Below the pieces are notes generated by a model. The model saw nothing but the letters and a program-made list of their open reading frames with translations. It was not told the DNA's origin and searched no databases. The translations under genes and the position numbers were made by a program. From a virus, in IMG/VR virus record IMGVR_UViG_3300030329_005741, positions 1 through 52,044 of that record: a stretch of 52,044 nt of DNA. One strand, 5' to 3'. Positions within the stretch are counted from its first letter, which is position 1; every line of letters starts with the position of its first letter. Of this stretch, positions 1 through 30,549 are shown piece by piece.

Positions 1-3000
1 TGGTAGTAGTCGTCGTCGTGGTAGTAGTCGTCGTCGTGGTAGTAGTCGTCGTCGTAGTAGTCGTCGTAGTAGTCGTCGTCGTAGTAGTAGTCGTCGTAGT
101 AGTCGTAGTAGTAGTCGTCGTAGTCGTCGTCGTAGTAGTCGTCGTCGTAGTAGTCGTCGTAGTAGTCGTCGTAGTAGTCGTCGTCGTGGTAGTCGTCGTC
201 GTCGGCGCAACGGTGGTGGTCGAGGTCGGCACGCAATAGCACTCACAGTCTGCTTGAGTTGGGTCAGAGCAGGGTTGCCCTTGATAGCCGCCCGATACAT
301 ATGTGCATTCATAAGAAGACCCCGGAGGACAAGAGGTCGTCGTCGTTGTTGTGCATATTGTGAAATCATCACCATATTTATATCCAACTATATAATCATG
401 AGGCCACTTTCCATCAGCACTGCTTGGATCATCATCCGGATGACCACACCCTCCCACAGCGCCCGTAGCGCTTTCTCCAACTACAGTTAGATAATAAGTC
501 CCCTCTGGCAATGAAACTTCAATTCGCTCAGATCCAAGTCCATCGCTATCAGTGCAAGCTACATAAGCTGTGTTCGGTTCCTCAGTGACATCCCCAGTGG
601 TCGCATCAAGCTTATGAAGGCATAACTGTATATCAAATTTATGCATACCTCCGGAACAACTATTCGGAACTCCCCACCCGCTACAATCTCCATCGGGGCC
701 ATTATCGCAAGCTGTAAATTGGAATTTTTTATTAGCTTGAGCGGCGGCTACGTCGAACTTCCAAACATCAGCACGATTCCAGCCCATTAATGTTTGAATG
801 CCCGTATCTTGCCAGCCGCCACTTGCATCCCACTGGGTTGTGGTAGGCAAATTCAAATCGCTTGCGTCCGTCTTATAAATGTCTACTTCGTTACATTTAA
901 AATCTTCTGGAACGCTTGGAGGTGGCGGACAATTATCGCATGGCCACCATCCTACAGCCATGTATCCAGCGTCACTACGGTGTTGTTGCGCGTTACTTAA
1001 GTCATTCGCATTAAGTCCCGCATCGGTTCTTCTCTTCAACCCTTCCACGCCGGACGTGACCCCCAGCGCGAACAATTCTCTAAGCTGATCTGGCGGATAT
1101 TTATTATTCACAGCGCTAGATGTCGGATCTATGGAAACGTTACACCACAAAGGGTCAACAACAACGAAACACTTGTATGTGTCAGTCTTTTTGCCATTAT
1201 TGTCTACTCTATCTGGGTCATATTTATCACAGGGCAATAATTCACCCTTAAACGTCTTCATAGGATCACCCAATCTTTTGTTATTATCTACAGCAGGAAC
1301 AAAAGGCCCTTGTTCAACTATAGCGGGCTGCGTATCTCCTTTTGCATAACGCTTGACATCGCCTACGGCGGTTTCCCAATGCGTATCTTGCTCCCCCCAT
1401 CCAGCAAATTCTAACATCCATCCATTTTCCACGTTTTGGGTCCATGTATCCGCCGGGGCTACGCCAGCCGAATCATCACGACGACACACAGTGCATACGT
1501 CGCCCATTTGCCAATCCGTCTTTCCATAGCCCTGTAGAATAACTGTACGAGTATCCCAGAAAGGAAATCCTGATCCACACTCAACATCGTTGGTTGTTCT
1601 TTGGGGCTGACTTATTTCTGTACACGAAAGGCTATATCGTTTATCTCCATACGTCCATCCTGCGCCCGCTACAGTCGGATCAGCGACAGGGTTAGTGTCA
1701 AGAGCATGACTTTTATAGCGCACCACCCAATCAGTTGCTTCATCGGGAGTAGCGCCTATAGGAGCGCCCACCATCTCATCGTCTTGGTTACGGTTTGGTC
1801 CTGCGTATGGAAATGCGCAAGCGCATTTGGGATCTGACCAATCAGAGGGGTCGTTCTCGTGCCCGGGGGGCGCTGACCACAATTTAGTATTTGGATCTTG
1901 ATTCCAAGTCGTTGGGGTTCCAAGTCCATATCCCCTGTATTTATGTATCATTTCAGCCTTGGGATCGCCGGGGGGGTGGACAATATCCACTGGTACAAAA
2001 TCGTAAGAAGGAATTCCCAATATTTCGTTTACACCCGGATTCCAATCGCTCGCACTAGTAAGGGTTTCGTTACCCTCGTTATGGCTCCAAGCTTGACTAT
2101 GTCCCATTCCGCCGAAAACAATATATTTTTTATTATTTCCATTTGTATATTGTTTTATGATTTCAGCCCAATGTCGATTAGACCCTCCATTTAATGGTCC
2201 AAAACAACCCGCGCAATTTCCGGCTGTAGCTATATACCCTCTGTTGCTGGCTGTAAGGATGGCATTGTCGATACTAAGCGCGGTGTTGGGACCGCCCATT
2301 TCCAGACACTGCTCACTGTTGTTGAAGTCACGGTTACAATCTATTGGCACTACTTCGATTCCGGCGGCAGCCGCATTTTCTACAAATTTATATAGCCATT
2401 CGTATCCCCAAGGTTCCCAATTTGCCGCGTGGGGCCATGACGACCAGTAGTGACTGTTTGTGGCTTGGTTCACTCTACTGTCCCAATCTACGCCTCCGGT
2501 CATCGTATTGTTTCTTAAAACCAAATCTCCTTGACTAAAATCTCCCACACTTGATCCTTCAGTCGCGAAAAAGTCGAACGCCCATTTTTTGTCTGATTTA
2601 CCCATCTCCGTGAATATATAATCAACGCTAATAGGTATGCTACCGCTTGCTATGTCATTCAATAGATCGTAGGCGGTCATTGTGCCATGGATTTCGCCAA
2701 TAAAAATTCCATTGTGAGCTTGAACGTCGTCAGCCATTTTGCTTATAATGTTTGCTCCACCACATACTGTGGCTTCAGAGCTAATTATTTGGCCTTCGCA
2801 AACGCTCATATTTTTTTCATCAAACCAACCATAGCCAGCTTGTGGCTGCGTACCGCCCGCCCAAGTGCTCCCCATGTAATTAGTATCAAAATAAGCATAA
2901 AATTTTTCTACGACCTCTGCTTCATCGTCTATTTTTGCTTTACCGATGTTCTCGACCATCATGGTCTCCACGCCAGCCGCGAAGTTGAGCGTTACAGAAA

Positions 3001-6000
3001 TACCCCCCACCGTACCCATCGTTCCTTCTCCGCCATCAGGAGAAGCGGGTTCAGTTAAGCCTGATGTTGGTGATGGTGGAGTGCCGTGTCCTTCAAAATC
3101 ATCCTCACTCGCTAAGGCTCCCGGGTCCCCCCCACTAAATCGACTAAAGGTAAAAAGGCCAACTGTTCCCGTCTGCGGGCCATGCCCTATATTTACAATG
3201 CATTTTATTGGCGTAGATAAGTCTCCATGTCTACGGACTTTGAATTTAATTTCCTCTCCTTCTTGAAATTGCTTAAGACCTCTTGGGGGCATAAAGTAGT
3301 CCGAAAAAGGAGGGGGATCTGTGATAGTGTTGGGAAGGGGATCACTATCTGTATCAAAAGTAAACCAACTAGTCATACACGTTGGTTCCTTAAAAGTTTC
3401 TTGGAGCATATTTGCTCCACCCATACCTTGTTTCGCTCCTTCCTCTTCACAATACTGTTGGCCAACATTGTTTGGTACATGCCAATGAGTATTATCATCG
3501 GTGAGCCATTCTGGAAGCCTTACTGGTTTAATCGTCTTACCAATAATTTCTACAGGATCAGGTTCAGAGGTGTAGAGGGGGCTGCCATCTGGTTTGGTAG
3601 CGGCATACCATCGGTACGGCACGGCAAATATATTATGATTACCGTTTATCGCTTGAGCGAAATCCCTATCTCGAAGACCTCGGCTTGCTTGTGGCTGCGG
3701 GATTGACTGCTTATCGTGAGGATGAGGATTAAGGTATATCGGCCTATTATACGTAACTCCGGCTCGGGTAAATTCTTTTAATTTCGGCCCCTGCATTGGA
3801 GTGCCTCGCCACTCATCCACTAACGTTCCATCTTGACCTGAAGGTCCGGGATCATATCCGTACTGCACACCATTTTCATCTTTACATAAATATCCAATGT
3901 AACAACATTGGTGATCTGAACCAGAGATAGCATCGGTTGGCGTTACTACTGGCAATTGATATCCATCCACGGTAGCGCCGTCGCGCACTTGAGCACCGGG
4001 ACCATTCCACGTTGCTTTTGGAGGGTTAACAAACCAATCCATTACAATGTGAGTTGCATCGTTCCCCCCCTGTGGGGTTTGCATGCCATGCGTGGGTATG
4101 TCAAAAGTAGCTGGCATTACTCTGTGTTGATGAAAACTAGATTTAATTCTATCTTTCTTGCCATCTAAAGCCTGTCCGGCGTTGAATATAGGATCAGCGT
4201 CCACAATTTCCCAACCATCTTCCGCTTGCCGTTTAACAAAAGTAAAGAAGCCAGACCCAGAAATGTTCCATGATAACGAAGTGTCTTGTAATAGCATAGA
4301 TCTATACTGCCACTTAGAATTTACTGGACCAGATAAAGCATTCGCTTTAAGAGCGTTCATTTCTAGATAATTTGTGCCGACAGGGTTAACTACAACGTCC
4401 TCATCCCAACAGTTTTTTCCAACATATTCACACCAACTGAAACCTCCCGTCATGGAGGGGCTAGAGCCTTCGTAAACGGCCAGATTTTTCCACCCCGTGG
4501 TATATTGTGTTTGACATTCTCCATTATTGGTGGGAGGGCAAAAAGCTTCTAACGTAGCGGCACGAACATGCAGTCCAGTGAAATATAGTCCTGTACTCGC
4601 AGGAACTGGAGGCATGCCGTTTTCAGTTACGTTGATCGCTCTTCTTTCATCGATGGCCATATTGCTCGAAGGCCGCGCTGCCCCGGCGGTGTATCCAGCA
4701 TGAATAGTATTCCAACTCGCAGTACCGGGACCAAAAGTGACAATGTTATCTTGTAGGTCTGTATTATATGCTGCCATACATGGTCTTCCTTGAAAGCAAT
4801 TACAGTTAACATCATAGCTCTCGATAGCCTTGCTAGCGCAGTTATTATCGTTATTTACAAAAATTACTTGTTTAGTTGCGTAATGAGAAAGAACCTCCGC
4901 GCCGTTTTCCCATTTATGAACTTTTACGGCTTCGTCGGAGTCATTGTTATCCCATTGAAAAAATGTAGGGTTGTGCAGGGGAGCGCCAAGGACCGGATCG
5001 CTTTTTTTATTGCCGGGAAAGAAAAGCATCGGATCTACAACATTACCAATAACATTGCCGTCTGCCATTCCTATGTTATTAAAAATGTGCATATTTTCAC
5101 CGGGACCACATTCGCCCGATTCATAACAACAAGAATCATGAACTTCTATCGCCTTATGACTCTGAGTCCCGTTTTGCCCCACAACCCAAGGAGTACCCAA
5201 CTGACTATAGGGGCGCGTATCTGTTTCGTCGGTAGATTGATTTTTAACAATCGTGCTTACTTGGATGGTTATTACCTCTCCATCATCATTTTCTAATTTA
5301 ATTGCTTTGTGTTTCGTTCCATCATTTGGGTTGTTTGTTACGTCTAGAAGAAGGGCGTCAATATCTGAAGCGGTTACGCCACTCCCGGCGGCTCCCGCCG
5401 AAAAATACCAATACCTAGGCGTCCAAGTTCCATTTACATCTTCTCCCTCTACATCACATCTATAAGCTTTATAAAAACCACAATCCGCAGTATCAATTAC
5501 TACATCACCGCTAGCAGCATCAATATGCCATCTCACTGTTGGGGCTTTGCCGTTACTACCAGTGACAGTGCCGCCATCTATATTATTGTTTGGCGATTTG
5601 TTTGGCCCCATTGGATTATATTGAGCCGCAGTAGTATCTCCATAGTTTTCTGGGTAAGGGTAACCCCAGTTAAACCTCAAAGGCCATGTGCTAGCTCCCT
5701 CCGGCCCGCCTTTTCCTGATTTATGAAAAACGTTGGGCAATTGCGCGGTATTAATATTATCATAATGAGGAATTCCTTGGTCCTTTGAAATGGTGCCTTT
5801 TTTTATTATTATACCGTCAACAGTTCCATCTTCTAAGACTATGTTATGAGTATTGTTTTTTGCTTCTAAGTCTGCCCAACTAACTCCCGGTGCAGTAAAG
5901 TGAACCTTAACACTTACTTCATTATTTGGGTCGTTGGGATCTGTGATCGTTTCTCCACAAACTACCCCCGTATAGTAAACGGGACAAAAGTTACAAGTAT

Positions 6001-8512
6001 CCACATGTGTGCCGCTAGAATCATTCGTATCATTGTCGGTGTCTTGATAAATAAATAAATGTTCAGCATTAACGCCCGCTTGTCCGGGCGTAGTTGGGTC
6101 AGTTTCCCAATTGTAAGCCGCTGCATTGAGTGAACCTAACTGCTTTCCATTTCCATGATTAACGGTGATAGCCTTAGTCGCTATGGCTGTGGAAAAGGGC
6201 GCACTATCTACTAACGTATTTATCTGTGCAATAGTGGGGGTATAATCGACAGCATGAGTTATGTTGCCATGCCTTGGGTCTCTTACGAGTTGTCGCAATC
6301 TAAGAACATGCCGGAGCATGTCATTATCTTTTTCCCATTTTACATATTGAGCGTTTGGAGCTTTATCAGCATGAAAGGCAAGCTGCTTTGGGTATGTGTT
6401 ATTACCGTACGTAAGATGACCAAGGTTAGTGTCAGTCATTGGGGATGCAAAATTATACCTTTGAACGCATGAGTCGATTGGCTGATCGGCGTTAAAAAAA
6501 TCTGGATTGTTGGCTGTTTTTAATCCCAAAACACCTGTGGTGTTTTCGTTAACGCCGTCGAATTTAAACAATATTATATTTTTGTCAAACATTCCAACGC
6601 CTTCTGATGGCTCCCATACAATAGTCCCATCGCCTTGCTTGACATTTAAAATTGGACGCTTAAATCCTATGTAAACATCTTTAGCCAGTGTGTTGATCCA
6701 GATCATTACGACTGCGGTAATACCAATATTGTGATTACCTTGCGGCGAAATTCTCCACCCCACTATGGGTTCTTCTACCCCGATTAATAATTTGCTGGGG
6801 CTACCGTTCGATAACGGAGAGTATCTTTCTTGTATTTCTGACGACGATAAAGTTGCAAAATCATTTGGAGAGGCTCCGGCGGGAGCAATAGACTTTACTA
6901 CAACTATTTCTTCATTTGAGCCATCAACTATTTTTAAGGAATCCCCTACTCGTATATTAGCGCAATTTCCGTTAGTACAATCTATTTCAAAACTTGTATC
7001 TCCCTGAGAAATTTCTTTCGCTACTCGACCCCCTTGAGATGTTCCGCAGACAAAAACATAATTATTTTCATCTATATCATCAACTAAACTAGGAGATATT
7101 TTATATTCTATTTCGCAATTTGCTTTTTCAGTTATTTTTGTTATCCTGTGGTAATAAGTAACAGGGTCAATGTCAGGATCGAGCGAAACTTTAGTAAAAT
7201 AAATACAATCACCTTCTTTTGCTATTTCTGTTAGAGAAGCTCCGACAGTTTGATCACAAAATGTTAAAATATTAGTATTTTTAGTCGCAAGCTTTCGTGT
7301 AACTCCATAAGAATTTCCATTTGACTGATCGCAATTATCGGAGGTACATGCTGGCATATCTTCTATGTTTGTCCCCCAAACAAATTCATCACACCCCGGA
7401 CATCCGGCAGACCCCTTATCTCCTTGATAACCTTTTCCTGCGTAAGATCCAGAAATTCCTTGGTATCCTTGATACCCTGCTTCCCCTGAGGCTCCAGCAA
7501 TACCCGCTCCGCCCGGAACGCCTTGATAACCTTGATATCCATGCCCTTGATAACCTTGGTATCCAGCGCCTTGGTAGCCTTGATAACCTTGTCCAGCGTA
7601 AGCGCCAGAATCTCCTTGATAACCTTGGCTGCCTTGATAGCCTTGGTAGCCTTGAATTCCTGCGTCACCTTGGTAACCTTGATAACCAGCGCCTTGATAA
7701 CCTTGGCTACCTTGGTAGCCTTGATATCCTTGAATTCCTTGGTCTCCTTGATCTCCTTGGTAACCTACAGCGCCCCAGCTACCAGACATACCTTGGTAAC
7801 CTTGATGTCCCACTCCTTGATAGCCTTGATACCCTTGATAACCCTGATGCCCTACTCCTTGGTTGCCTTGATAACCTTGATACCCTCTAAGGTCGCTAGT
7901 TCCATCAGCGCCAGTCATTTTTAATATACCACCCATGTTAGGATGAGTAGTACAGTAATAATGCATATTTTCGTTCACCCCATTAGGTACATCCCACATC
8001 AAATATGAAGAACCATCTCCATCTGTTCCGGATTTAACTAACTCGAAATTAGAAATGCCTGTGTAAGTGCTGTGGCTTTGATGATTTCCATCTTCCCCCG
8101 TAGACAAAGAAAAAATATGAGTGCTGTTAGATGGGTGGCTTAAATTGAACTTATATTTAAAATTAGGTAAAAGCTTTAAGGTGGGCTGTTGAATATTGTC
8201 AATATAATATCTTCCGGCATTTACGGTTACATAAAATTCAATTTCAGCTACGCCCGGATTACCTTGGTGGCCCTGATAGCCTTGATAACCTTGGAATCCT
8301 TGGGGGCCAACATTCCCAATTATTCCTGCTACGCCGATATCCCCCTGATAACCCATGGGGCCTTGCGGTCCGGGCGCTCCCGATCCTGACCCTCCGCTTG
8401 ATGCTGTTCCGCCGCCGGAAGAAGTTGAAGATGTAGACGAAGAACTAGACGATCCTGACCCAGAAGAATAGATCTCGGAGTTGCTATGTAAATTTGTTAT
8501 GACAATCGGCAT
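1..8512 (-). CDS. Giant collagen-like tail fibre / adhesin, C-terminus beyond left edge
   Basis: An uninterrupted frame of at least 2,837 codons starts at ATG 8512, five bases after the preceding stop codon, and runs off the left edge. The order of parts is: Ser/Gly-rich N-terminus (residues 1-45), a short collagen-like block (46-86), a cupredoxin-like domain (about 87-195), a long Gly-Tyr-Gln collagen-like block (about 208-372), a long region with many Asp/Asn/Trp/Gly-rich segments, a Tiki/ChaN-like domain (about 1900-2180), a beta-rich segment resembling a pre-peptidase C-terminal domain (about 2520-2710), a Cys-rich linker and a poly-Thr run. Size, collagen-like repeats and position after the head genes indicate a virion fibre or adhesin that contacts the host. 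This role is inference; the repeats and motifs are read directly. The true length and C-terminal domain are unknown. Confidence 0.85.
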   Translation of the reverse strand, partial: MPIVITNLHSNSEIYSSGSGSSSSSSTSSTSSGGGTASSGGSGSGAPGPQGPMGYQGDIGVAGIIGNVGPQGFQGYQGYQGHQGNPGVAEIEFYVTVNAGRYYIDNIQQPTLKLLPNFKYKFNLSHPSNSTHIFSLSTGEDGNHQSHSTYTGISNFELVKSGTDGDGSSYLMWDVPNGVNENMHYYCTTHPNMGGILKMTGADGTSDLRGYQGYQGNQGVGHQGYQGYQGYQGVGHQGYQGMSGSWGAVGYQGDQGDQGIQGYQGYQGSQGYQGAGYQGYQGDAGIQGYQGYQGSQGYQGDSGAYAGQGYQGYQGAGYQGYQGHGYQGYQGVPGGAGIAGASGEAGYQGYQGISGSYAGKGYQGDKGSAGCPGCDEFVWGTNIEDMPACTSDNCDQSNGNSYGVTRKLATKNTNILTFCDQTVGASLTEIAKEGDCIYFTKVSLDPDIDPVTYYHRITKITEKANCEIEYKISPSLVDDIDENNYVFVCGTSQGGRVAKEISQGDTSFEIDCTNGNCANIRVGDSLKIVDGSNEEIVVVKSIAPAGASPNDFATLSSSEIQERYSPLSNGSPSKLLIGVEEPIVGWRISPQGNHNIGITAVVMIWINTLAKDVYIGFKRPILNVKQGDGTIVWEPSEGVGMFDKNIILFKFDGVNENTTGVLGLKTANNPDFFNADQPIDSCVQRYNFASPMTDTNLGHLTYGNNTYPKQLAFHADKAPNAQYVKWEKDNDMLRHVLRLRQLVRDPRHGNITHAVDYTPTIAQINTLVDSAPFSTAIATKAITVNHGNGKQLGSLNAAAYNWETDPTTPGQAGVNAEHLFIYQDTDNDTNDSSGTHVDTCNFCPVYYTGVVCGETITDPNDPNNEVSVKVHFTAPGVSWADLEAKNNTHNIVLEDGTVDGIIIKKGTISKDQGIPHYDNINTAQLPNVFHKSGKGGPEGASTWPLRFNWGYPYPENYGDTTAAQYNPMGPNKSPNNNIDGGTVTGSNGKAPTVRWHIDAASGDVVIDTADCGFYKAYRCDVEGEDVNGTWTPRYWYFSAGAAGSGVTASDIDALLLDVTNNPNDGTKHKAIKLENDDGEVITIQVSTIVKNQSTDETDTRPYSQLGTPWVVGQNGTQSHKAIEVHDSCCYESGECGPGENMHIFNNIGMADGNVIGNVVDPMLFFPGNKKSDPVLGAPLHNPTFFQWDNNDSDEAVKVHKWENGAEVLSHYATKQVIFVNNDNNCASKAIESYDVNCNCFQGRPCMAAYNTDLQDNIVTFGPGTASWNTIHAGYTAGAARPSSNMAIDERRAINVTENGMPPVPASTGLYFTGLHVRAATLEAFCPPTNNGECQTQYTTGWKNLAVYEGSSPSMTGGFSWCEYVGKNCWDEDVVVNPVGTNYLEMNALKANALSGPVNSKWQYRSMLLQDTSLSWNISGSGFFTFVKRQAEDGWEIVDADPIFNAGQALDGKKDRIKSSFHQHRVMPATFDIPTHGMQTPQGGNDATHIVMDWFVNPPKATWNGPGAQVRDGATVDGYQLPVVTPTDAISGSDHQCCYIGYLCKDENGVQYGYDPGPSGQDGTLVDEWRGTPMQGPKLKEFTRAGVTYNRPIYLNPHPHDKQSIPQPQASRGLRDRDFAQAINGNHNIFAVPYRWYAATKPDGSPLYTSEPDPVEIIGKTIKPVRLPEWLTDDNTHWHVPNNVGQQYCEEEGAKQGMGGANMLQETFKEPTCMTSWFTFDTDSDPLPNTITDPPPFSDYFMPPRGLKQFQEGEEIKFKVRRHGDLSTPIKCIVNIGHGPQTGTVGLFTFSRFSGGDPGALASEDDFEGHGTPPSPTSGLTEPASPDGGEGTMGTVGGISVTLNFAAGVETMMVENIGKAKIDDEAEVVEKFYAYFDTNYMGSTWAGGTQPQAGYGWFDEKNMSVCEGQIISSEATVCGGANIISKMADDVQAHNGIFIGEIHGTMTAYDLLNDIASGSIPISVDYIFTEMGKSDKKWAFDFFATEGSSVGDFSQGDLVLRNNTMTGGVDWDSRVNQATNSHYWSSWPHAANWEPWGYEWLYKFVENAAAAGIEVVPIDCNRDFNNSEQCLEMGGPNTALSIDNAILTASNRGYIATAGNCAGCFGPLNGGSNRHWAEIIKQYTNGNNKKYIVFGGMGHSQAWSHNEGNETLTSASDWNPGVNEILGIPSYDFVPVDIVHPPGDPKAEMIHKYRGYGLGTPTTWNQDPNTKLWSAPPGHENDPSDWSDPKCACAFPYAGPNRNQDDEMVGAPIGATPDEATDWVVRYKSHALDTNPVADPTVAGAGWTYGDKRYSLSCTEISQPQRTTNDVECGSGFPFWDTRTVILQGYGKTDWQMGDVCTVCRRDDSAGVAPADTWTQNVENGWMLEFAGWGEQDTHWETAVGDVKRYAKGDTQPAIVEQGPFVPAVDNNKRLGDPMKTFKGELLPCDKYDPDRVDNNGKKTDTYKCFVVVDPLWCNVSIDPTSSAVNNKYPPDQLRELFALGVTSGVEGLKRRTDAGLNANDLSNAQQHRSDAGYMAVGWWPCDNCPPPPSVPEDFKCNEVDIYKTDASDLNLPTTTQWDASGGWQDTGIQTLMGWNRADVWKFDVAAAQANKKFQFTACDNGPDGDCSGWGVPNSCSGGMHKFDIQLCLHKLDATTGDVTEEPNTAYVACTDSDGLGSERIEVSLPEGTYYLTVVGESATGAVGGCGHPDDDPSSADGKWPHDYIVGYKYGDDFTICTTTTTTSCPPGSSYECTYVSGGYQGQPCSDPTQADCECYCVPTSTTTVAPTTTTTTTTTTTTTTTTTTTTTTTTTTTTTTTTTTTTTTTTTTTTTTTTTTTTTTTTTTTTTTTTTTT
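2..202 (-). repeat. Poly-threonine tract, at least 67 codons, open at the window edge
   Basis: Every codon from 202 down to 2 is ACT, ACG or ACC; no ACA appears. It follows a Cys-rich linker (about ten Cys between residues 2700 and 2760) and a TSTTTVAPTTT segment. Such Thr runs usually form stiff, glycosylation-prone linkers before a terminal domain. The mixed codons argue that the run is kept at protein level and is not only a DNA slippage product. Confidence 0.9.
1972..2812 (-). other. Tiki/ChaN/EreA-like putative hydrolase domain inside the fibre gene
   Basis: Residues about 1900-2180 contain, in order, a hydrophobic strand ending in IGEIHGT (Glu1940, His1942), a strand ending in IFTEMG (Glu1969), IEVVPIDCNRD, and near the end YIVFGGMGHSQ (His2138). 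The order GExHG - strand-E - strand-D - GxxH is that of the Tiki/TraB/ChaN/EreA superfamily, whose members use these His and Glu residues for metal-dependent peptidase or esterase-type chemistry. Assignment is by motif reading only. A role in cutting a host surface polymer is inference. Confidence 0.6.
7398..7890 (-). repeat. Collagen-like GYQGYQG repeat block
   Basis: About 55 Gly-X-Y triplets, mostly GYQ with GNQ, GHQ, GDQ, GSQ and some interruptions such as GAGYQG. Tyr is the usual X residue and proline is rare, unlike classical collagen. It is a low-complexity DNA repeat (CCTTGATAA and CCTTGGTAG units on the plus strand) and likely changes length by slippage. A shorter block with the same pattern lies at about 8255-8375. 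Confidence 0.85.
7930..8254 (-). other. Cupredoxin-like domain inside the fibre gene
   Basis: Residues about 87-195 hold a beta-rich segment with candidate His126/His132 followed by Cys187-x2-His190-x2-Met193, in the local string YYCTTHPNMGG. The C-x2-H-x2-M spacing matches the type 1 copper loop of short cupredoxins. Related domains ending in YYYC..H..MGG are common in marine-phage structural proteins. Copper binding itself is inference. Confidence 0.65.
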
Positions 8513-8517
8513 TGTTT

Positions 8518-8877
8518 TTAGCTATAAGTATCAGATGAAGTTACTTGTGGGCTAATTATTAATTTTCCTCTAACGATTTTTTCTACGTACCCTGTTCCAG
8601 ACAAATCATATTTTTCTATATCATATACTCCTATAGTTACAGGCAAATTGTTTGTTTGGTTGGGGGTCAATAAAATATCCACGAGCCCTCCCGTAGCATC
8701 GTGGATTATCGGATTTAAATTAAGAATAATGTCTGTGTCAGAGTATTTTTGTTTTACTACCCCTCTTATCCCGTAGTTGGTTAAATCTACCGCATTATTA
8801 TTGTCATCAAGACAAGAAATCCTAATGTTAAAAGACGAACCTTGAGTAACGTTTAAGTCTACATTTTCCCCACTCAT
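8518..8877 (-). CDS. Small beta-sandwich virion protein, LtfC/BppU-N-like
   Basis: This 119-residue protein has the layout of a domain common in phage baseplate and fibre-attachment proteins: a start rich in short strands (QGSSFNIRISCLDDNNNAVD), then VDLTNYGIRG, then a Thr/Asn turn and YDIEKY...GKLIISPQVT at the end. Known relatives are all-beta domains that begin baseplate proteins or stand alone next to fibre genes. It ends five bases before the giant fibre start, so the two are probably co-translated, which supports an attachment or assembly role for the fibre. The family link is by pattern, not by search. Confidence 0.6.
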   Translation of the reverse strand: MSGENVDLNVTQGSSFNIRISCLDDNNNAVDLTNYGIRGVVKQKYSDTDIILNLNPIIHDATGGLVDILLTPNQTNNLPVTIGVYDIEKYDLSGTGYVEKIVRGKLIISPQVTSSDTYS

Positions 8878-14623: not shown

Positions 14624-15412
14624 TTATTTTAACAAGTTTAGTAATTTATTTGGATACTTAAAATCGTATATATTTTTAAAAGCGATTATTTTGTTAGACC
14701 CCCGATAGTCTATATGCGAATTAAAATCTATGTCTTCCAAAAGATTAATTAAATCTCCTTGTGACGCAGGATTTTCTTTTGACAAGTTTTTTATTTCCAT
14801 GTCTAAGGTTTTTATGTCCTGCTTGAAATAATCATAACATTTACTCCTGTAGGTTAAGATCCTATAAAACGCATCTGAATTTTTTTCTTTATATAAATTC
14901 AAAAGTTCTCCTTCGCTTAAGAAAATGTCATGATAGATGGAGGAAGCGTAAGTTATTAAATCTCCCGTGCCAGAGAAGTCTAAGTCAAAAATTCCAACCT
15001 TATCAAAAAAATCTCTATTTACCACGGATGGAGATTTGTGTTTTAGTTTATTATTTAATCTTACTAATTTATATTCTTCCAAAAGCCAAGAAGCTTTTTC
15101 AGCCCAACGGTTGTCTGATATTAATAGATCATTATTAAGCCAAGCTATTTTTTTGTATCGCTGCGGAATCTTTGAAGAAAGTACGTTTAGAGCGTTTCCT
15201 TCTATCAAAGCTGGTAATAAAATCCTTTCTAAAAAATAACCTTCGTCACATATTTTTGAAAGCTTAGGTCTTTCTCCCTCGGGAACAATTTCTATTGTGA
15301 AAAGGGGAACGCCTTGAGATTCTAACTTTTCCTTAAACTCAATGAAGTTTTTTACTTTGCTAGAGTCATTGCAAAAATCAAAGAAGCAAGTTATTGCGGC
15401 GAGATCATTCAT
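14624..15412 (-). CDS. Glycosyltransferase-like protein (GT-A type)
   Basis: A 262-residue protein. The core QRYKKIAWLNNDLLISDNRW followed by AEKASWLLEEYKLVRL has the pattern of a phage GT-A family in which the D-x-D-like element follows a hydrophobic strand (WLNNDLLI). The region VGIFDLDFSGTGD resembles the second acceptor-side motif (G-x-GD) of the same family. The N-terminus, AAITCFFDFCN, is a first beta strand. It overlaps the PAP2 gene by eight bases, so the two are translationally coupled. It likely adds a sugar to a virion or host-surface target; donor and acceptor are unknown. Confidence 0.55.
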   Translation of the reverse strand: MNDLAAITCFFDFCNDSSKVKNFIEFKEKLESQGVPLFTIEIVPEGERPKLSKICDEGYFLERILLPALIEGNALNVLSSKIPQRYKKIAWLNNDLLISDNRWAEKASWLLEEYKLVRLNNKLKHKSPSVVNRDFFDKVGIFDLDFSGTGDLITYASSIYHDIFLSEGELLNLYKEKNSDAFYRILTYRSKCYDYFKQDIKTLDMEIKNLSKENPASQGDLINLLEDIDFNSHIDYRGSNKIIAFKNIYDFKYPNKLLNLLK

Positions 15413-16091
15413 TTAGCGAGTAGCTTAAATAAGCTGGCATTAAAACCTGATTAACTAAAATCTTCGAATATTCGTTATCACTTTGAAAATGGACTCCTTC
15501 TTTTATTCTAGATTTGCCGACTGTTTCAGCTATTCTTAAAAATTCTTTTTCTGCCGCAGGGTGAAAATAACCACAGATATTAGCAGCCAAAAAGGCAGAC
15601 GCAGTATGACCGCTTGGGTATGAGGGGGTATTTGCAGTGCCCTTGTTTTGCATTTTTTTATCAAAGTTTATATCAATCTCGTGATATTCAGACAATTGAT
15701 ACGGCCTTGCTCTTTTGTAAAACATTTTCATCCTCATAATGAAAACATTTACGTCTTCCATTACTTGGGAAATTTTATATTCTTTTTTGCTATCTCCTCC
15801 GTATATTTTATCGCAAAAGTCTGTAACTATTCCATCAGGATAATCATCACATTTTTTTAATAAGCTTTCTGATGGAGTCCACTCTTCTTGAAATGATTTT
15901 ATAAAATAAAGCTCTTCTTTGGTAGAAGTGCTAGAATTTTTTGGAGGTTCAATAATTGGAACTTCATCAAAATTGATTTTCAAAACTTGAAAAGAATTAT
16001 TGGCTTGTTTGGATAACTCTTCCCTAGTTTCTTCGTAAGTGATTTTATCTACATCAAAGGCGCGTATCTTAGATGTAAAGTCAATTTCCAT
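15405..16091 (-). CDS. PAP2-superfamily phosphatase
   Basis: A 228-residue protein with all three active-site motifs of the PAP2/acid phosphatase superfamily: K122-x6-R129-P130 (KMFYKRARP), P159-S-G-H162 (SYPSGHTAS) and S194-R-x5-H201-x3-D205 (KSRIKEGVHFQSD). No transmembrane helices are seen, so it resembles soluble class A acid phosphatases or vanadium haloperoxidase-like members, not membrane lipid phosphatases. It would release phosphate from a small or lipid-head substrate. It lies between a tubulin-like gene and a glycosyltransferase-like gene inside the head operon and overlaps the latter by eight bases. Confidence 0.85.
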   Translation of the reverse strand: MEIDFTSKIRAFDVDKITYEETREELSKQANNSFQVLKINFDEVPIIEPPKNSSTSTKEELYFIKSFQEEWTPSESLLKKCDDYPDGIVTDFCDKIYGGDSKKEYKISQVMEDVNVFIMRMKMFYKRARPYQLSEYHEIDINFDKKMQNKGTANTPSYPSGHTASAFLAANICGYFHPAAEKEFLRIAETVGKSRIKEGVHFQSDNEYSKILVNQVLMPAYLSYSLNE

Positions 16092-16099
16092 AAAAGCCC

Positions 16100-17233
16100 T
16101 TATCTATAAGTTGGATTATTTAATCCACCAATAGCGGTAAAGATCATTAAGTTCGGTTTATCTCCACTATAAATCCCTCTATGCACCATACTTCCTTGTC
16201 TAAGTATTCTGTTTAACTGGTCAAGCGCTTGATCAATATGGCTCTGGGGAAGTTTGTCTAATATTTCTTTTCCAGCTATAACTATAGTTCCAGCTACGTT
16301 GCCCGTGGATATATCCACGCTTCCAGATAATAAACTATTTTTTAGATTATCTCTAACTACTCTAGATAAAGCTACAGGATCTTCCCAGTTTTTAACGGGG
16401 GATACTCCAAAAGCTACGGTCCCAGAATCTAAGATCGTTTTATAATCGTTTTTATCGAAAGATGAATAAGAACTATCTTTGCTGGAAGTTAAATTGTATA
16501 AATTAAAAAGTCCAGCCATGCTAGAATTTGCGGTAGTCCAAAATTTAGATATAGGAAGATTGGGGTATAATTGACTTATTTTTTCGTTATCTAAAATTAT
16601 GAGGGGAGAAACTAGCCCCTTAGCTTTAAGATTATTAACTTGAGCCAAAGCGCTTACCGCGTTCTGGTGAACCTTTTGCCCTTCCGATTTTCTCGGTAAA
16701 GTTAAAATCACCCCGACCTTTTTCGAGCCAGTGTTTAAACTAACTTGAAGATCATGGGCTGTCTCAATTAGCGGCCCAACGGTTCCTGATCCAGAACCTC
16801 CGCCAGCACCAGCACAAACGAATATCCTATCGAATTCCTCTCCAAAAGAATAACGCATAAAATCTAAAACATCTTCTTTCTTTTCTAAAAATTTTTCTCT
16901 AGCCAATTCTGGTTGTTTGCCCGCGCCACCGTCGCCAATGCAAAGCTTATTCTCCAAAGAAACAGTGTTGAGATCTTGTTCTGCCGTATTAAGAACGGCG
17001 ACTCTATTGTAACCCAAGCTCTTGAACGTTTCCGCTATTCTTGACCCGCCTTGCCCTGCTCCAATAAAAGCAAACTTAAAAGAAACATTAATATCGTCCT
17101 CTATGACATTTTTGTATACAGCTTCTTGTTCTTCATTTGGCTCAGGCATAACCATTCCATCAGAAAAAGAAATATCCACATCTTCATTGTACATATTTTT
17201 AATTTGATTGTCTTTATCTAGATTTTCTTCCAT
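16100..17233 (-). CDS. Tubulin/FtsZ-like GTPase
   Basis: A 377-residue protein with the tubulin-family signature GGGSGSG at residues 144-150 (CAGAGGGSGSGTVGP) and an early nucleotide-loop GAGQGGSR (58-65), each after a hydrophobic strand. The first 50 residues are an acidic extension. Phage tubulins such as PhuZ form filaments that place the replicating DNA or move capsids in the cell. Here the gene lies directly next to the portal gene (the ATG lies one base past the portal stop codon), so it may act in capsid placement or DNA delivery to heads; this is inference. SD AGAAGGA precedes the ATG. Confidence 0.85.
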   Translation of the reverse strand: MEENLDKDNQIKNMYNEDVDISFSDGMVMPEPNEEQEAVYKNVIEDDINVSFKFAFIGAGQGGSRIAETFKSLGYNRVAVLNTAEQDLNTVSLENKLCIGDGGAGKQPELAREKFLEKKEDVLDFMRYSFGEEFDRIFVCAGAGGGSGSGTVGPLIETAHDLQVSLNTGSKKVGVILTLPRKSEGQKVHQNAVSALAQVNNLKAKGLVSPLIILDNEKISQLYPNLPISKFWTTANSSMAGLFNLYNLTSSKDSSYSSFDKNDYKTILDSGTVAFGVSPVKNWEDPVALSRVVRDNLKNSLLSGSVDISTGNVAGTIVIAGKEILDKLPQSHIDQALDQLNRILRQGSMVHRGIYSGDKPNLMIFTAIGGLNNPTYR

Positions 17234-25663: not shown

Positions 25664-26311
25664 TTATTTCTTAAGAAAATCTGTATAGATTGGGTTAGAC
25701 ATGATGTCGTCTATTATAGAGAAATTACTTGAGTAAGAAGTAAAGTAACTTATTTTTATATTTGTTTTCAGAAATTTGCTTTCATTAAACTCCCCCTTAT
25801 GTCTTGCGAACGTATAATAAGTGTCAGCTTTTTCTTTTTTTGCAATTTCCACAATCTTGTCGTGGTATTTACCTTTTATATTTCCATGACTTATTGATGA
25901 AAACGTAAACTCCGTGCCAAAATTTAATTGATCGCATATTCTAAAAACGCTATAAGCGGAAATGTGACAAACGTTATCAATTGGTAAATTTATTATTTCT
26001 TCTAAAAGAGGGTATACTAAATTGAAGTTAATTTCATTTTTGTATTGAACCCGGATAAGCTTCAAAAATTTATTTTTCCATTTGTCGTTTTTGAATTTAA
26101 TTTCTTTGGTGGGGACAAATTTACCCTCCTTATAGTCAACAGGAATCCTAAAATAGTAGTTAGAAGAGTTTAATTTTATAAGAGTTTTGTTTACCCAATT
26201 CTTCGAATTATAGTTGGTGTCGTCCAAGAATATAAATTTATCGACCTTTTTTGCTAAATCATAATAAGATTTATAAGGGAAAAAATTAGGCTGTACAATG
26301 GCTAGCTTCAC
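25664..26311 (-). CDS. WbqC-family protein
   Basis: A 215-residue protein starting at GTG 26311, with AAGGG seven bases upstream; an earlier GTG at 26341 adds residues unlike the family. The start KLAIVQPNFFPYKSYYDLAK with KVDKFIFLDDTNYNSKNWVN is the WbqC signature. Members occur in surface-polysaccharide loci and are linked to amino-sugar or dTDP-sugar modification; the exact reaction is not established. The gene is last in the sugar cluster. Base composition is very AT-rich, like its neighbours. Confidence 0.75.
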   Translation of the reverse strand: MKLAIVQPNFFPYKSYYDLAKKVDKFIFLDDTNYNSKNWVNKTLIKLNSSNYYFRIPVDYKEGKFVPTKEIKFKNDKWKNKFLKLIRVQYKNEINFNLVYPLLEEIINLPIDNVCHISAYSVFRICDQLNFGTEFTFSSISHGNIKGKYHDKIVEIAKKEKADTYYTFARHKGEFNESKFLKTNIKISYFTSYSSNFSIIDDIMSNPIYTDFLKK

Positions 26312-26341
26312 AATTAAACCCTTAAGACAAGTATAAAACAC

Positions 26342-27295
26342 CTATGAATATTTTTTTTCATAATATTTTATAGTTTTTTGCAAACCCCTCTTTAAATTTG
26401 TGGAAGGCTTCCATTTTAAATTTTTAGAAATTTTGTCATTATTAATGGCATATCTAAAGTCGTGACCCAAACGATCTTTAACAAACGATATAAAATCATT
26501 AGGCTCCTTTTTTAATATTTTACAAATTTCGTAGATTATTTCCAAATTTGTTTTCTCGCAATTTGCTCCCACCAAGTATGTTTCTCCCACTTTGCCCTTT
26601 GTTAAGATTTTCCATACGGCAGAACAGTGATCTTCGACGTATATCCAATCTCTTACATTATCTCCCTTGCCGTAAACAGGGATAATGGCTTCGTGCAATA
26701 AAGCATCTATAATGGTGGGTATAAATTTTTCTTTATGCTGATTTGGGCCGTAATTATTGCTACAATTTGAGATGGTTATAGGTAGATTATGAGTGTGAAA
26801 ATAAGATCTCACAAGAAAGTCAGACGCAGCTTTTGACGCTGAGTAAGGGTTTCTTGGGTCATAGGGTGTATCTTCCGAGAATTTTTCATCTTCTTTATTT
26901 AAGTGCCCATATACTTCGTCTGTAGATACGTGATGAAATCGTTTTATTTTAAATTTTAATGCTGATTTAATTAAGTTATATGTCCCGATAATGTTTGAAT
27001 CTAAAAATGCGTCTGCATCAGATATAGAATTATCTACATGAGTTTCAGCCGCAAAATGAACTACGTGGGTTATATCATGCTTGTAGAACGTATCGTATAC
27101 ATGCCTAAAGTTGGATAAATTATAATTTTGAAAAATATACTTAGGGCTTTCTTTAAAGCCGTCCGTATTCTCTAAAGAGCCCGCGTAAGATAGACGGTCA
27201 ATATTAACGAGCTTGCTGACTCGCTTTTTGTTTATAGCATATTTTATAAAGTTAGAGCCAATAAATCCGCATCCTCCTGTTACTAGTAAGTTCAT
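26342..27295 (-). CDS. rmlB: dTDP-glucose 4,6-dehydratase
   Basis: A 317-residue extended short-chain dehydrogenase. The NAD site is TGGCGFIGSN (G7-x2-G-x2-G13), the substrate motif is HVSTDEVYGHL, and the catalytic YSASKAASD carries Tyr and Lys of YxxxK. WIYVEDHCSAVW is typical of RmlB. It turns dTDP-glucose into dTDP-4-keto-6-deoxyglucose. It follows the SET gene by three bases. With RmlA upstream in the same operon, the phage can make this activated sugar, but RmlC is absent. Confidence 0.92.
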   Translation of the reverse strand: MNLLVTGGCGFIGSNFIKYAINKKRVSKLVNIDRLSYAGSLENTDGFKESPKYIFQNYNLSNFRHVYDTFYKHDITHVVHFAAETHVDNSISDADAFLDSNIIGTYNLIKSALKFKIKRFHHVSTDEVYGHLNKEDEKFSEDTPYDPRNPYSASKAASDFLVRSYFHTHNLPITISNCSNNYGPNQHKEKFIPTIIDALLHEAIIPVYGKGDNVRDWIYVEDHCSAVWKILTKGKVGETYLVGANCEKTNLEIIYEICKILKKEPNDFISFVKDRLGHDFRYAINNDKISKNLKWKPSTNLKRGLQKTIKYYEKKYS

Positions 27296-27298
27296 AAA

Positions 27299-27670
27299 TC
27301 AATCTTTCAAGTCTTTAAAGCAAGTTCTCCATTCTTTGGAAAAGTATTTACTCGTTAATTCTTCATCCTTCTGTATATTTCTTAGGGCAACAATTTTCAT
27401 TTTGTCATTAGGTAAATCTCCGACTTTTTTTACATTTGGGTTTTCTGAGTGATTGTAGAATGGCAAGCATCCACTCCCTCCTGCCCAAGTTTTTTTATCA
27501 TCGCTCCAAGTAAAAAGGTGGGGATTCTCATTTCCGTCTACGTTATTTAACCTATACATAACTCCCGTCTCTATGACTTCTCCCTCTTTAAAATCCGATT
27601 CAGCGAAAACGCCTAAACCATAAATAGATTTTTCAACATAAACTTTTTGACAATCTATATATTTTTTCAT
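27299..27670 (-). CDS. SET-domain protein
   Basis: A 123-residue stand-alone SET domain. GLGVFAESDFKEGEVIE is the first motif, LPFYNHSENPNV the NHSxxPN motif, and KIVALRNIQKDEELTSKY the final motif with the conserved Tyr. It would transfer a methyl group to a Lys of a protein target. I use ATG 27670; GTG 27673 is one codon upstream, and both overlap the previous stop codon. The target is unknown and could be host or virion protein. SET proteins are uncommon in phages. Confidence 0.78.
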   Translation of the reverse strand: MKKYIDCQKVYVEKSIYGLGVFAESDFKEGEVIETGVMYRLNNVDGNENPHLFTWSDDKKTWAGGSGCLPFYNHSENPNVKKVGDLPNDKMKIVALRNIQKDEELTSKYFSKEWRTCFKDLKD

Positions 27671-28185
27671 CACAATAGTTCTTTTAAATGCGTTGCGTTA
27701 AAGTAGATAACAAGTAGATATACAATAATAGAGTTTATAACGGCAAATTCTACGATTTTTTCTATTATATTTTCTCCCCCACTTTTTATATTATCATGCT
27801 CGAATAAAGCTTTTTGATATGTAAAGTATCCCAAAAACACAAACAAGCTAATTAAACAAGCTCCTATTGAGTACGTTAAATCGCCTGTTATCGCCCATGT
27901 TACCACACCGCAGTATGGAGCCATTAGCGTAACATCGCTTATCGTGTCTAAATATCCTCCAAGCTTGCTTGTTTTATTATATTTTCTTGCTACCCCTCCA
28001 TCCAGACAGTCACAAAAATATTTGATTATTAAGAGCAAATTAGCCCAGTGAATATAGCCTTTAAGTAACAATGTAATAATAAACACATTGCATACCATAC
28101 CAGTTAAGGTTATTGAATTCGGATGGATTTTTTTAAACGGACATAACATCCATTCTCGGTTAACTATATAGTCGTCTAATTTCAT
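27670..28185 (-). CDS. CDP-alcohol phosphatidyltransferase
   Basis: A 171-residue membrane enzyme with the full family signature D59-x2-D-G-x2-A-R-x8-G-x3-D-x3-D84 (DCLDGGVARKY ... GGYLDTISD). At least four hydrophobic segments follow. Members swap CMP of a CDP-activated alcohol (for example CDP-diacylglycerol or CDP-choline-like) for another alcohol. Start ATG 28185 overlaps the LicD-like stop codon as ATGA, so the two are translationally coupled and probably act on the same headgroup. Confidence 0.85.
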   Translation of the reverse strand: MKLDDYIVNREWMLCPFKKIHPNSITLTGMVCNVFIITLLLKGYIHWANLLLIIKYFCDCLDGGVARKYNKTSKLGGYLDTISDVTLMAPYCGVVTWAITGDLTYSIGACLISLFVFLGYFTYQKALFEHDNIKSGGENIIEKIVEFAVINSIIVYLLVIYFNATHLKELL

Positions 28186-28787
28186 TTTATAATAATACTT
28201 GGGTGATTGCTGACAGATCTCCATTCATACTCTTTTTCTTTCAGTTTTCGAATAAATTTTGTTCCGTATGACCATTCCATTAAAGCTATTGGATTATTAG
28301 GTATATTGACTTTGCATTTTTTAAAATTGGCAAGCCTGAACGGAAAAAAATAATTTTTCGGTATATGTAAGTCCTCTTTATCCTCGGTTGCTTTTTTTAT
28401 GGTTTTTTTTAAATGGTAGGGGGCATGGTTATAGTAATCTATGACGTAGTCTAAGTTGGTATTTTTGTAGGGGTAAAAATCAATGAAGACTTTAGTATTT
28501 TCAATTATTTTTATAAATTGAAGGATATTGTATGGTGTCGCTATAGGGGAGTGGATATGTCTAAAAGTGAAATCATTTTCTATAAAAATTTTTTTTACAT
28601 TTTGAACTTCGTTAGAATCGATATAAAAATCTAAATCGTCATCATCCTCGATAATATCACCATCCCTAACACATCCTAAAAGGGTTCCCCAACTTATACA
28701 ATATTTAATTTTGTTTTCATTTAGTAAGAGAGAAGCTAAAAGCAAGCATTTACTAAGGATTTTTTTATTTCCGGGGGGTTTTAGCAT
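28182..28787 (-). CDS. LicD-like nucleotidyl/phosphoryl-transferase
   Basis: A 201-residue protein. W33-G-T-L-L-G-C-V-R and then IIEDDDDLDF (Asp48-53) form the LicD/nucleotidyltransferase-fold active site. LicD proteins move phosphocholine or a like group onto cell-surface sugars. The four-base overlap with the CDP-alcohol transferase suggests a two-step headgroup pathway. The donor is unknown. Confidence 0.8.
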   Translation of the reverse strand: MLKPPGNKKILSKCLLLASLLLNENKIKYCISWGTLLGCVRDGDIIEDDDDLDFYIDSNEVQNVKKIFIENDFTFRHIHSPIATPYNILQFIKIIENTKVFIDFYPYKNTNLDYVIDYYNHAPYHLKKTIKKATEDKEDLHIPKNYFFPFRLANFKKCKVNIPNNPIALMEWSYGTKFIRKLKEKEYEWRSVSNHPSIIIK

Positions 28788-28791
28788 ATGG

Positions 28792-29655
28792 CTATCTCCA
28801 ATTTGAAAGGGATTCGTCTATAGCCTCTTGAACGCTTCTTATTTTAACGCCAGCGGATATCAATTTTGAGTTGTCAAGAAGACAATTAGATCTTGGAGCC
28901 TTCGCTCCAAGTTTGTAAAATGTTTGCTCATCTGAAAAAAAACTAAAATCATTTTTAATATTATACTCAGCCATCTTCTGCGCAACCCAAGAGGTTGTCA
29001 CGGAACCTGTGTTGACCACGTTATAAATGCCTGTAGGGCAATCATTTTCGTATAAATCTAAACAAGCTTTGACAAAATCACCCCTATGAGTAATAGAATT
29101 TTCTGCGTTCAATAATTTATCATAATTAATTAATTTTGAAATATAATTGCGTGGGCTATCGATTTCATCGAAAGGAATCCTTAATCTACAAATATAGGAA
29201 TTATTTTTATTGACCAAATCTTCCGCTAAAGCTTTGCATCCAGAATAAAAAGAACCATTATTAGTTTTAAAACAAAAATTAGGTGGGTCTTCCTCGGTAT
29301 ACGTCTTGTCATATCCGTCATAGATACAACCAGAAGAAATATGCATATATTTTATATTCAAGTCAGAACATATGTCTGAAATCATTTTGGGTAATACAAC
29401 ATTCCCCTCTATAGTCTCTGCCTTATGGTCTTCACAAGCATCTACATTTGGTTTCCCTATATAGCCAGCGCAATTAATAACTAAATCAAAAGCTCTATAA
29501 GAATCAGTTGTTAAAAGGGTATATAAATGAGAAAAGTTAGTATAATCTATATTTACCCGCGATATACCTCTATATGATAAATTCCTTTTATTTAACTCAT
29601 TTATGAATTGAGTTCCTATATAACCCGTTTCCCCTAATACTAAAACCTTTTTCAT
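28792..29655 (-). CDS. RmlD-like dTDP-4-keto-sugar reductase
   Basis: A 287-residue short-chain dehydrogenase-like protein. GETGYIGTQF is the NAD(P) loop, INCAGYIGKPNVDACEDHK the substrate strand, SSGCIYDG the Ser site and FYSGCKALAED the YxxxK site. It is closest in layout to RmlD/dTDP-4-dehydrorhamnose reductase. Since RmlC is missing, the product may be another 6-deoxyhexose and not rhamnose. It overlaps RmlA by four bases. Confidence 0.75.
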   Translation of the reverse strand: MKKVLVLGETGYIGTQFINELNKRNLSYRGISRVNIDYTNFSHLYTLLTTDSYRAFDLVINCAGYIGKPNVDACEDHKAETIEGNVVLPKMISDICSDLNIKYMHISSGCIYDGYDKTYTEEDPPNFCFKTNNGSFYSGCKALAEDLVNKNNSYICRLRIPFDEIDSPRNYISKLINYDKLLNAENSITHRGDFVKACLDLYENDCPTGIYNVVNTGSVTTSWVAQKMAEYNIKNDFSFFSDEQTFYKLGAKAPRSNCLLDNSKLISAGVKIRSVQEAIDESLSNWR

Positions 29656-30515
29656 AATAGTCCTAATAAGTAATCTTTATAATCGCTGTTAGGCATTTTG
29701 TCTACAATCGCGGTTAATTGAGTTTTATTGATAAATTTTCTATTATATGCAGCCTCTTCAATGCATCCTATTTTGATTCCTTGTCTTTCTTCTATTACTT
29801 TAATATACTCAGATGAATCATGCAAAGATTTAGGAGTCCCTGCGTCAAGCCATGCACAACCTCTATTAATTTTTACTAATTTTACTGATTTTCTTGCAAT
29901 ATATTGATTAATAACAGAAGTAATTTCATATTCCCCCCTTTTAGAAAGCTTAACATGTTCACCAACAATTTTTACAACATCTTTATCAAATATGTATAGC
30001 CCCGGAACTGCATAGTTGCTCATCGGTTCCTCCGGCTTTTCTTCAACAGACATTAATTTGTTAGGGTTTTCTGGCTCAAAGTTAACAACTCCATATCTAG
30101 AAGGGTTTTTTACCTCATATCCAAATATTGTACCCCCAGATCTAAACCCCCTAAAGGCTCTACCAAATACGCGACTTCCATAAAAGATGTTATCCCCTAG
30201 AATTAGCGCAACTTTTTGATCTTTAATGAAAGTTCTAGCAATTAAAAATGCTTGCGCGATCCCTTCGGGCTTTTTTTGAACTTTATAACAAATTTTAATA
30301 CCTAATCTAGATCCATTACCTAATAATGTCTTATAATTATTAATTTGATCAGGAGAAGAAATAATACAAATGTCTTTTATTCCGTTTTCAATTAACGTAC
30401 ATAGAGGATAGTATATCATAGGCTTATCATATACAGGTAATAATCCTTTATTATTTACCAGCGCTGTAGGATATAGCCTCGAACTTGTTCCTCCCGTTAG
30501 TATTATTCCCTTCAT
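29652..30515 (-). CDS. rmlA: Glucose-1-phosphate thymidylyltransferase
   Basis: A 287-residue protein with the RmlA signature GIILTGGTSSRLYPT, then KGLLPVYDKPMIYYPL, ILGDNIFYG, EEKPEEP and GCAWLDAGTP. It makes dTDP-glucose from glucose-1-phosphate and dTTP. I chose ATG 30515 and not an upstream TTG at 30533, because a TATTAT -10 ends six bases before this ATG. It is first in the sugar operon. Confidence 0.92.
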   Translation of the reverse strand: MKGIILTGGTSSRLYPTALVNNKGLLPVYDKPMIYYPLCTLIENGIKDICIISSPDQINNYKTLLGNGSRLGIKICYKVQKKPEGIAQAFLIARTFIKDQKVALILGDNIFYGSRVFGRAFRGFRSGGTIFGYEVKNPSRYGVVNFEPENPNKLMSVEEKPEEPMSNYAVPGLYIFDKDVVKIVGEHVKLSKRGEYEITSVINQYIARKSVKLVKINRGCAWLDAGTPKSLHDSSEYIKVIEERQGIKIGCIEEAAYNRKFINKTQLTAIVDKMPNSDYKDYLLGLL

Positions 30516-30521
30516 TTCTCT

Positions 30522-30549
30522 ATAATAGTCCAAAAAAGCGCAATTTCAA
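30522..30549 (-). promoter_or_regulatory. Candidate leaderless promoter of the sugar operon
   Basis: TTGAAA, 16 bases, TATTAT, six bases, ATG of rmlA. Confidence 0.5.

Follow-up and report, generated by a model that had tools for sequence, protein, structure and literature searches.

The TIKI superfamily is built on a five-stranded parallel β-sheet with flanking helices, as in ChaN, the Ere esterases and HopBA1, and its members are functionally diverse, acting on macrolides, Wnt or Ras, or binding haem. Structures include 2G5G for ChaN, 6XCQ for EreC and 5W6L, 6A8J and 5T09 for RRSP and HopBA1, and a conserved basic residue stands 28–29 positions before the last His (R261 in EreC, R4001 in RRSP). 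Fibre-borne enzymes help to set the host reach of a phage, and few folds are known for such a role: some phage fibres and tailspikes carry enzymatic domains (depolymerases, deacetylases), and the examples that we know of all have folds other than TIKI. In RRSP, E3900, H3902, E3930 and H4030 are each essential (PMC6254334). In EreC, E47, H50, E78 and H289 position and activate water, and R261 has been proposed to stabilize the transition state; haem is bound by ChaN, another protein of the TIKI fold (PMC7979712).

We analysed the entire 52,044-base record of an uncultured phage (IMGVR_UViG_3300030329_005741; here, the window). Its minus strand carries a giant fibre gene (2–8512), a single open frame of 2837 codons that reaches the end of the record still open, so that the C terminus is missing and the last part is a threonine stretch (a long poly-threonine trinucleotide repeat at 2–204, minus strand). 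Collagen-like GYQG repeats sit near the start of the frame, the collagen repeats match PF01391 (E = 1.8e-13) and PHROG tail-fibre families match the same part; the frame thus combines triple-helix repeats with similarity to tail-fibre families, bearing out the first-pass annotation, which had described the carrier as a giant collagen-like phage fibre. Within the collagen region lies a cupredoxin-like stretch, HYYCTTHPNMGG (7901–8251, minus strand). The C-terminal part resembles, weakly and under the cut-off, a PPC β-sandwich domain (293–1000, minus strand; PF04151, E = 0.077); a by-eye impression of a Calx-beta sandwich before the domain described below found no Pfam support and was dropped. 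The adjoining small gene (8518–8877, minus strand) matches phrog_1084, of unknown function (E = 1.3e-20), and phrog_3304, an L-shaped tail fiber protein assembly family (E = 4.9e-5), and its product is probably an adaptor or an assembly protein of the fibre. Past it come the genes for capsid, cement, portal and terminase. Attachment of the fibre to the head instead of the tail is conceivable.

Residues of about 1914–2187 of the fibre (1952–2773, minus strand; boundaries approximate) very probably belong to the TIKI superfamily, an assignment made from profile ranks, alignments, HHalign and a profile search of the PDB. The first-pass annotation had proposed a Tiki/ChaN/EreA-like domain at 1972–2812, which corresponds to residues 1901–2181, with motifs in superfamily order at about residues 1939–2140, and all of them were found. 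Motif 1 is Glu1940-x-His1942 (2687–2695, minus strand) in GEIHG (1939–1943), both residues falling in invariant alignment columns. The second catalytic Glu, E1969 (2606–2608, minus strand) in FTEMG (1967–1971), is also in an invariant column and follows E1940 by 29 residues (family median, 30). A strand Asp, D2058 (2339–2341, minus strand), lies in GIEVVPIDC, within VVPIDCN (2054–2060); in a local alignment, 39 of 52 bacterial members have Asp at this position, and the strand is common to the two further phage copies described below. The second catalytic His, H2138 (2099–2101, minus strand), lies in GGMGH, within GGMGHSQ (2134–2140), is invariant and is present in all three phage copies. The 2Glu/2His set is therefore complete, in the order Glu-x(1-2)-His, Glu, His, and the 198 residues from first Glu to last His fall within the range of the ChaN set (172–201). 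The basic residue is displaced: the family column holds Ser, and the nearest Arg, R2113, is 25 positions before the last His, compared with 28–29 in the family. A single-sequence AlphaFold model of the domain gave no confident fold (pLDDT 32).

Direct searches with the window domain gave nothing meaningful in Pfam, PHROGs, NCBIfam or PDB sequences. The PF04187 (ChaN) model did not match it even at E = 10, placing it outside that Pfam family as modelled, and the PF01963 (TraB) model had no match in the window record. Collections of viral contigs and genome contigs contained no real relative; a phage collection returned ribonucleotide reductase noise only, plasmids returned Ku noise only, and matches in 395 Bacteroidota genomes proved on inspection to be noise (HemW, phosphofructokinase and citrate synthase). 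A single-sequence search of 50 terminase-related records likewise yielded nothing real. The direct searches found no TIKI-type domain in the phage records and contigs that they covered, and no TIKI-type domain in a phage fibre was found in the databases or in the literature searched, the coverage of which was incomplete; this agrees with the earlier remark that no described fibre with the domain was known.

One alternative is that the motifs resemble TIKI motifs by chance and belong to a domain of a different fold. In its favour, the family libraries gave no match to the window domain, and the stretch following motif 2, when scored by itself with a ChaN-only profile, reached only rank 32 of 5003. 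Motif 1 by itself is also uninformative. We assembled bacterial proteins in which GE-x-HGT comes after a hydrophobic strand, 53 of which were recognised as members of sufficient length; PF04187, whose ChaN family belongs to the Tiki superfamily, matched five of six scanned members, four of them above the cut-off. In a control, random open frames with a chance GExHGT scored approximately like the window domain against the first family profiles, so the GEIHGT motif alone proves nothing, and scores driven by GExHGT were discarded as evidence. ChaN proteins were added through the Pfam model, independently of the GEIHGT pattern, and bacterial sequences were trimmed around their motifs before alignment.

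The alignment of the window domain to the combined ChaN and GExHGT profile took in motif 1, the Asp strand and the GxxH motif. Against shuffled versions that preserved only motif 1, the real domain came third of 4001. At 16.3 bits it came first against natural pieces outside the family; random GExHGT frames reached 12.5 bits, as did YbaP of E. coli, a genuine member of the TraB family. With the bacterial profile alone, the domain ranked first among 3873 natural protein pieces (E = 9.7e-4; E-values from these local searches derive from small databases). In the PDB, the bacterial profile matched TIKI members only (EreC, RRSP, ChaN, HopBA1 and Bcr135 types). Similarity of the window domain to known TIKI members thus extends beyond motif 1.

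Further copies of the domain were found in the fibres of related phages. We scanned 29 terminase relatives, present whole or in large part, with the combined profile, beginning with two records (G007 and G009) chosen for the N-terminal part that their fibres have in common with the window fibre. The giant collagen fibre of G007 (IMGVR_UViG_3300009173_002997), which like the window fibre adjoins the major capsid gene, contains a second copy that was top of 2056 pieces at 16.2 bits, the next scoring 6.0. Its motifs read GIMIAEASHS, LFLEH, IDIVGIN and KRNIHWAKKINGYLSTHPTAKFLIVGGAAHATG, and its residues are E2713-x-x-H2716, E2740 and H2900, with an Arg 28 positions before H2900. The only Pfam match of this copy is to TraB/PrgY/gumN (PF01963; E = 0.0018, under the curated cut-off), on the GxxH region. 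The two fibres are also related elsewhere: their N-terminal parts are 69% identical over 155 residues, with the cupredoxin-like stretch and its flanks conserved at 69%, and the post-collagen base domain (residues 360–617; 6662–7435, minus strand) is kept across 267 aligned columns at 38% identity (E = 1e-45). Residues 2289–2353 (1454–1648, minus strand), downstream of the TIKI domain, form a block that is related in the G007 fibre (blastp, 29% identity, E = 0.006) and lies there in the same order relative to the TIKI domain. YIATAGNCAG, suggested as motif 4 by one blastp alignment, was rejected because it contains no His; NIHWAKK...GGAAH of G007 instead aligns with NRHWAEI...GGMGH of the window. 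The giant frame of G009 contains a weak GGNVHH stretch, which lies in a LamG-like region and is not a further copy.

A third copy, in the 2980-amino-acid collagen fibre of G013 (IMGVR_UViG_3300035204_001410), was found with a profile including the window and G007 copies. The three copies are about 25% identical to one another. Scored with only the bacterial profile, the copies of the window and of G007 ranked first but that of G013 came 17th; with leave-one-out profiles, each phage copy ranked first of 3873 (window, E = 2e-7; G007, E = 4.3e-5; G013, E = 0.0063). An HHalign comparison of the three-copy profile with the bacterial family spanned motif 1 to motif 4 (probability 96.3%, E = 1.7e-9), and the best match of the phage-only profile in the whole PDB was the TIKI-fold protein HopBA1 (E = 0.039; next, E = 1.2). 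Recovery of the domain in two related giant fibres, the leave-one-out ranks and these profile matches make chance resemblance very improbable. We base the assignment to the superfamily on the bacterial-profile rank, the two further phage copies, the HHalign and PDB matches and the spacing within the ChaN range, and not on GEIHGT alone; the earlier proposal of a Tiki/ChaN/EreA-like domain is borne out by the same evidence.

In the G013 copy, Asp, Phe and Gly replace the first Glu, first His and second Glu, and the last His alone is kept. With three of the four catalytic residues lost, this copy is probably inactive, and the domain is likely to serve a non-catalytic function in some phages at least. 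The loss bears on a second alternative, that the TIKI fold serves purely as a binding module that holds a host-surface ligand without turnover, its catalytic residues being relics or ligand contacts. Fibres are chiefly binding devices, the inactive-looking copy is carried by a fibre of the same type, and the copies have diverged to about a quarter identity. Four catalytic residues are nevertheless kept in the window copy, and four plus the Arg in the G007 copy, despite strong divergence elsewhere, and such retention is not what one would expect of a module that only binds. We consider a binding-only role rather unlikely, although it is the main rival to catalysis.

The explanation that we favour as a whole, with a confidence only slightly better than even, is a TIKI-type 2Glu/2His hydrolase carried on a collagen stalk and acting on the host surface. 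Residues of about 1914–2187 would fold as a parallel β-sheet core flanked by helices, in which E1940, H1942, E1969 and H2138 would form a single 2Glu/2His pocket. The collagen stalk would keep the domain clear of the particle and, on contact with the host, the pocket would hydrolyse a bond of ester or amide type on the host's envelope or glycan coat through an activated water, much as proposed for EreC. Cleavage could then free the phage from decoy sites or allow it to reach its receptor. We infer fold, pocket geometry, catalysis, substrate and infection role, and for these jointly the prospects are about evenly balanced. The likeliest function would be to hydrolyse a bond on the host surface, and the receptor-cleaving or receptor-modifying role raised in the first-pass annotation is plausible. 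The complete catalytic set, together with diverged copies in two related phages, suggests that a hydrolase type new to phage fibres may act on the host surface. The roles of the corresponding residues in RRSP and EreC, the profile evidence, the EreC layout and TraB match of the G007 copy and the relationship of the neighbouring gene to tail-fibre assembly favour the explanation as a whole. Points against it are the low confidence of the structure model, the conceivable attachment to the head, the off-column basic residue, the loss of residues in G013 and the haem binding of ChaN, a protein of the same fold.

The last of these points suggests a third alternative, in which the domain binds haem or metal and docks the phage to a host iron-uptake route. 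ChaN, the family nearest to the window domain in residue spacing, is a haem binder (PMC7979712). A complete 2Glu/2His set, however, typifies the hydrolases, and the superfamily is functionally diverse; we regard haem or metal binding as improbable. A broader version of the hydrolase reading is offered tentatively, at a little below even confidence: that the giant collagen fibres of this group of uncultured phages bear a virion-borne hydrolase of a new class, of TIKI 2Glu/2His type, which cleaves a host-surface bond during adsorption, the ExH, ExxH and dead copies of close relatives marking natural steps between an enzyme and a binding module. Catalysis and binding are separable by experiment, because two copies have a complete active site and one does not.

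Several other genes of the window and related contigs were recorded. A Tubulin/FtsZ-family GTPase (16100–17233, minus strand; PF00091, E = 5e-10) adjoins the portal gene and has a homologue at the same place in G009 (L313 69–1235), and a PAP2-superfamily phosphatase (15405–16091, minus strand; PF01569, E = 1.3e-11) lies amid structural genes. A surface-biosynthesis cluster (25664–30533, minus strand) encodes WbqC-like, dTDP-glucose dehydratase-like, SET, CDP-alcohol phosphatidyltransferase, LicD, NAD-epimerase-like and nucleotidyltransferase-like proteins, the SET-domain protein (27299–27673, minus strand; PF00856, E = 7.5e-13) being situated inside this sugar/envelope cluster; the cluster may alter the host envelope or decorate the virion. 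In a related 57-kb phage contig (IMGVR_UViG_2785510824_000057), a frame of 10,932 codons (bases 1–32797, minus strand) lies by the major capsid gene, with collagen-like repeats at its start and a LamG-like region inside; to our knowledge it is among the longest phage genes.

Among the described systems, ChaN (PF04187), a family of haem-binding uptake proteins, shares with the window domain the Glu-x-His, a second Glu about 30 residues on, a strand ending in Asp or Asn and GxxH. ChaN proteins are, however, stand-alone bacterial proteins, whereas the phage copies are internal to giant fibres. The window and G007 copies share a catalytic set with the Ere esterases, which also have a helical minor lobe, and the G007 copy has the layout of EreC (ExxH, Glu, Arg at −28 and His); the window copy differs in having ExH. 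In its 2Glu/2His set and ExH spacing the window domain is instead like RRSP, and HopBA1 is the closest to the phage-only profile in the PDB. Unlike RRSP and HopBA1, which are delivered bacterial effectors, the phage domain shows no sign of delivery into a cell. TraB/PrgY/GumN proteins (PF01963) resemble the G007 copy, under the Pfam cut-off, and have no match to the window copy. If our reading is correct, a TIKI-superfamily hydrolase would be an added fold among fibre-borne enzymes, and the arrangement is like that of phage depolymerase and deacetylase fibres and tailspikes, in which an enzyme-type domain is borne on the fibre that contacts the receptor.
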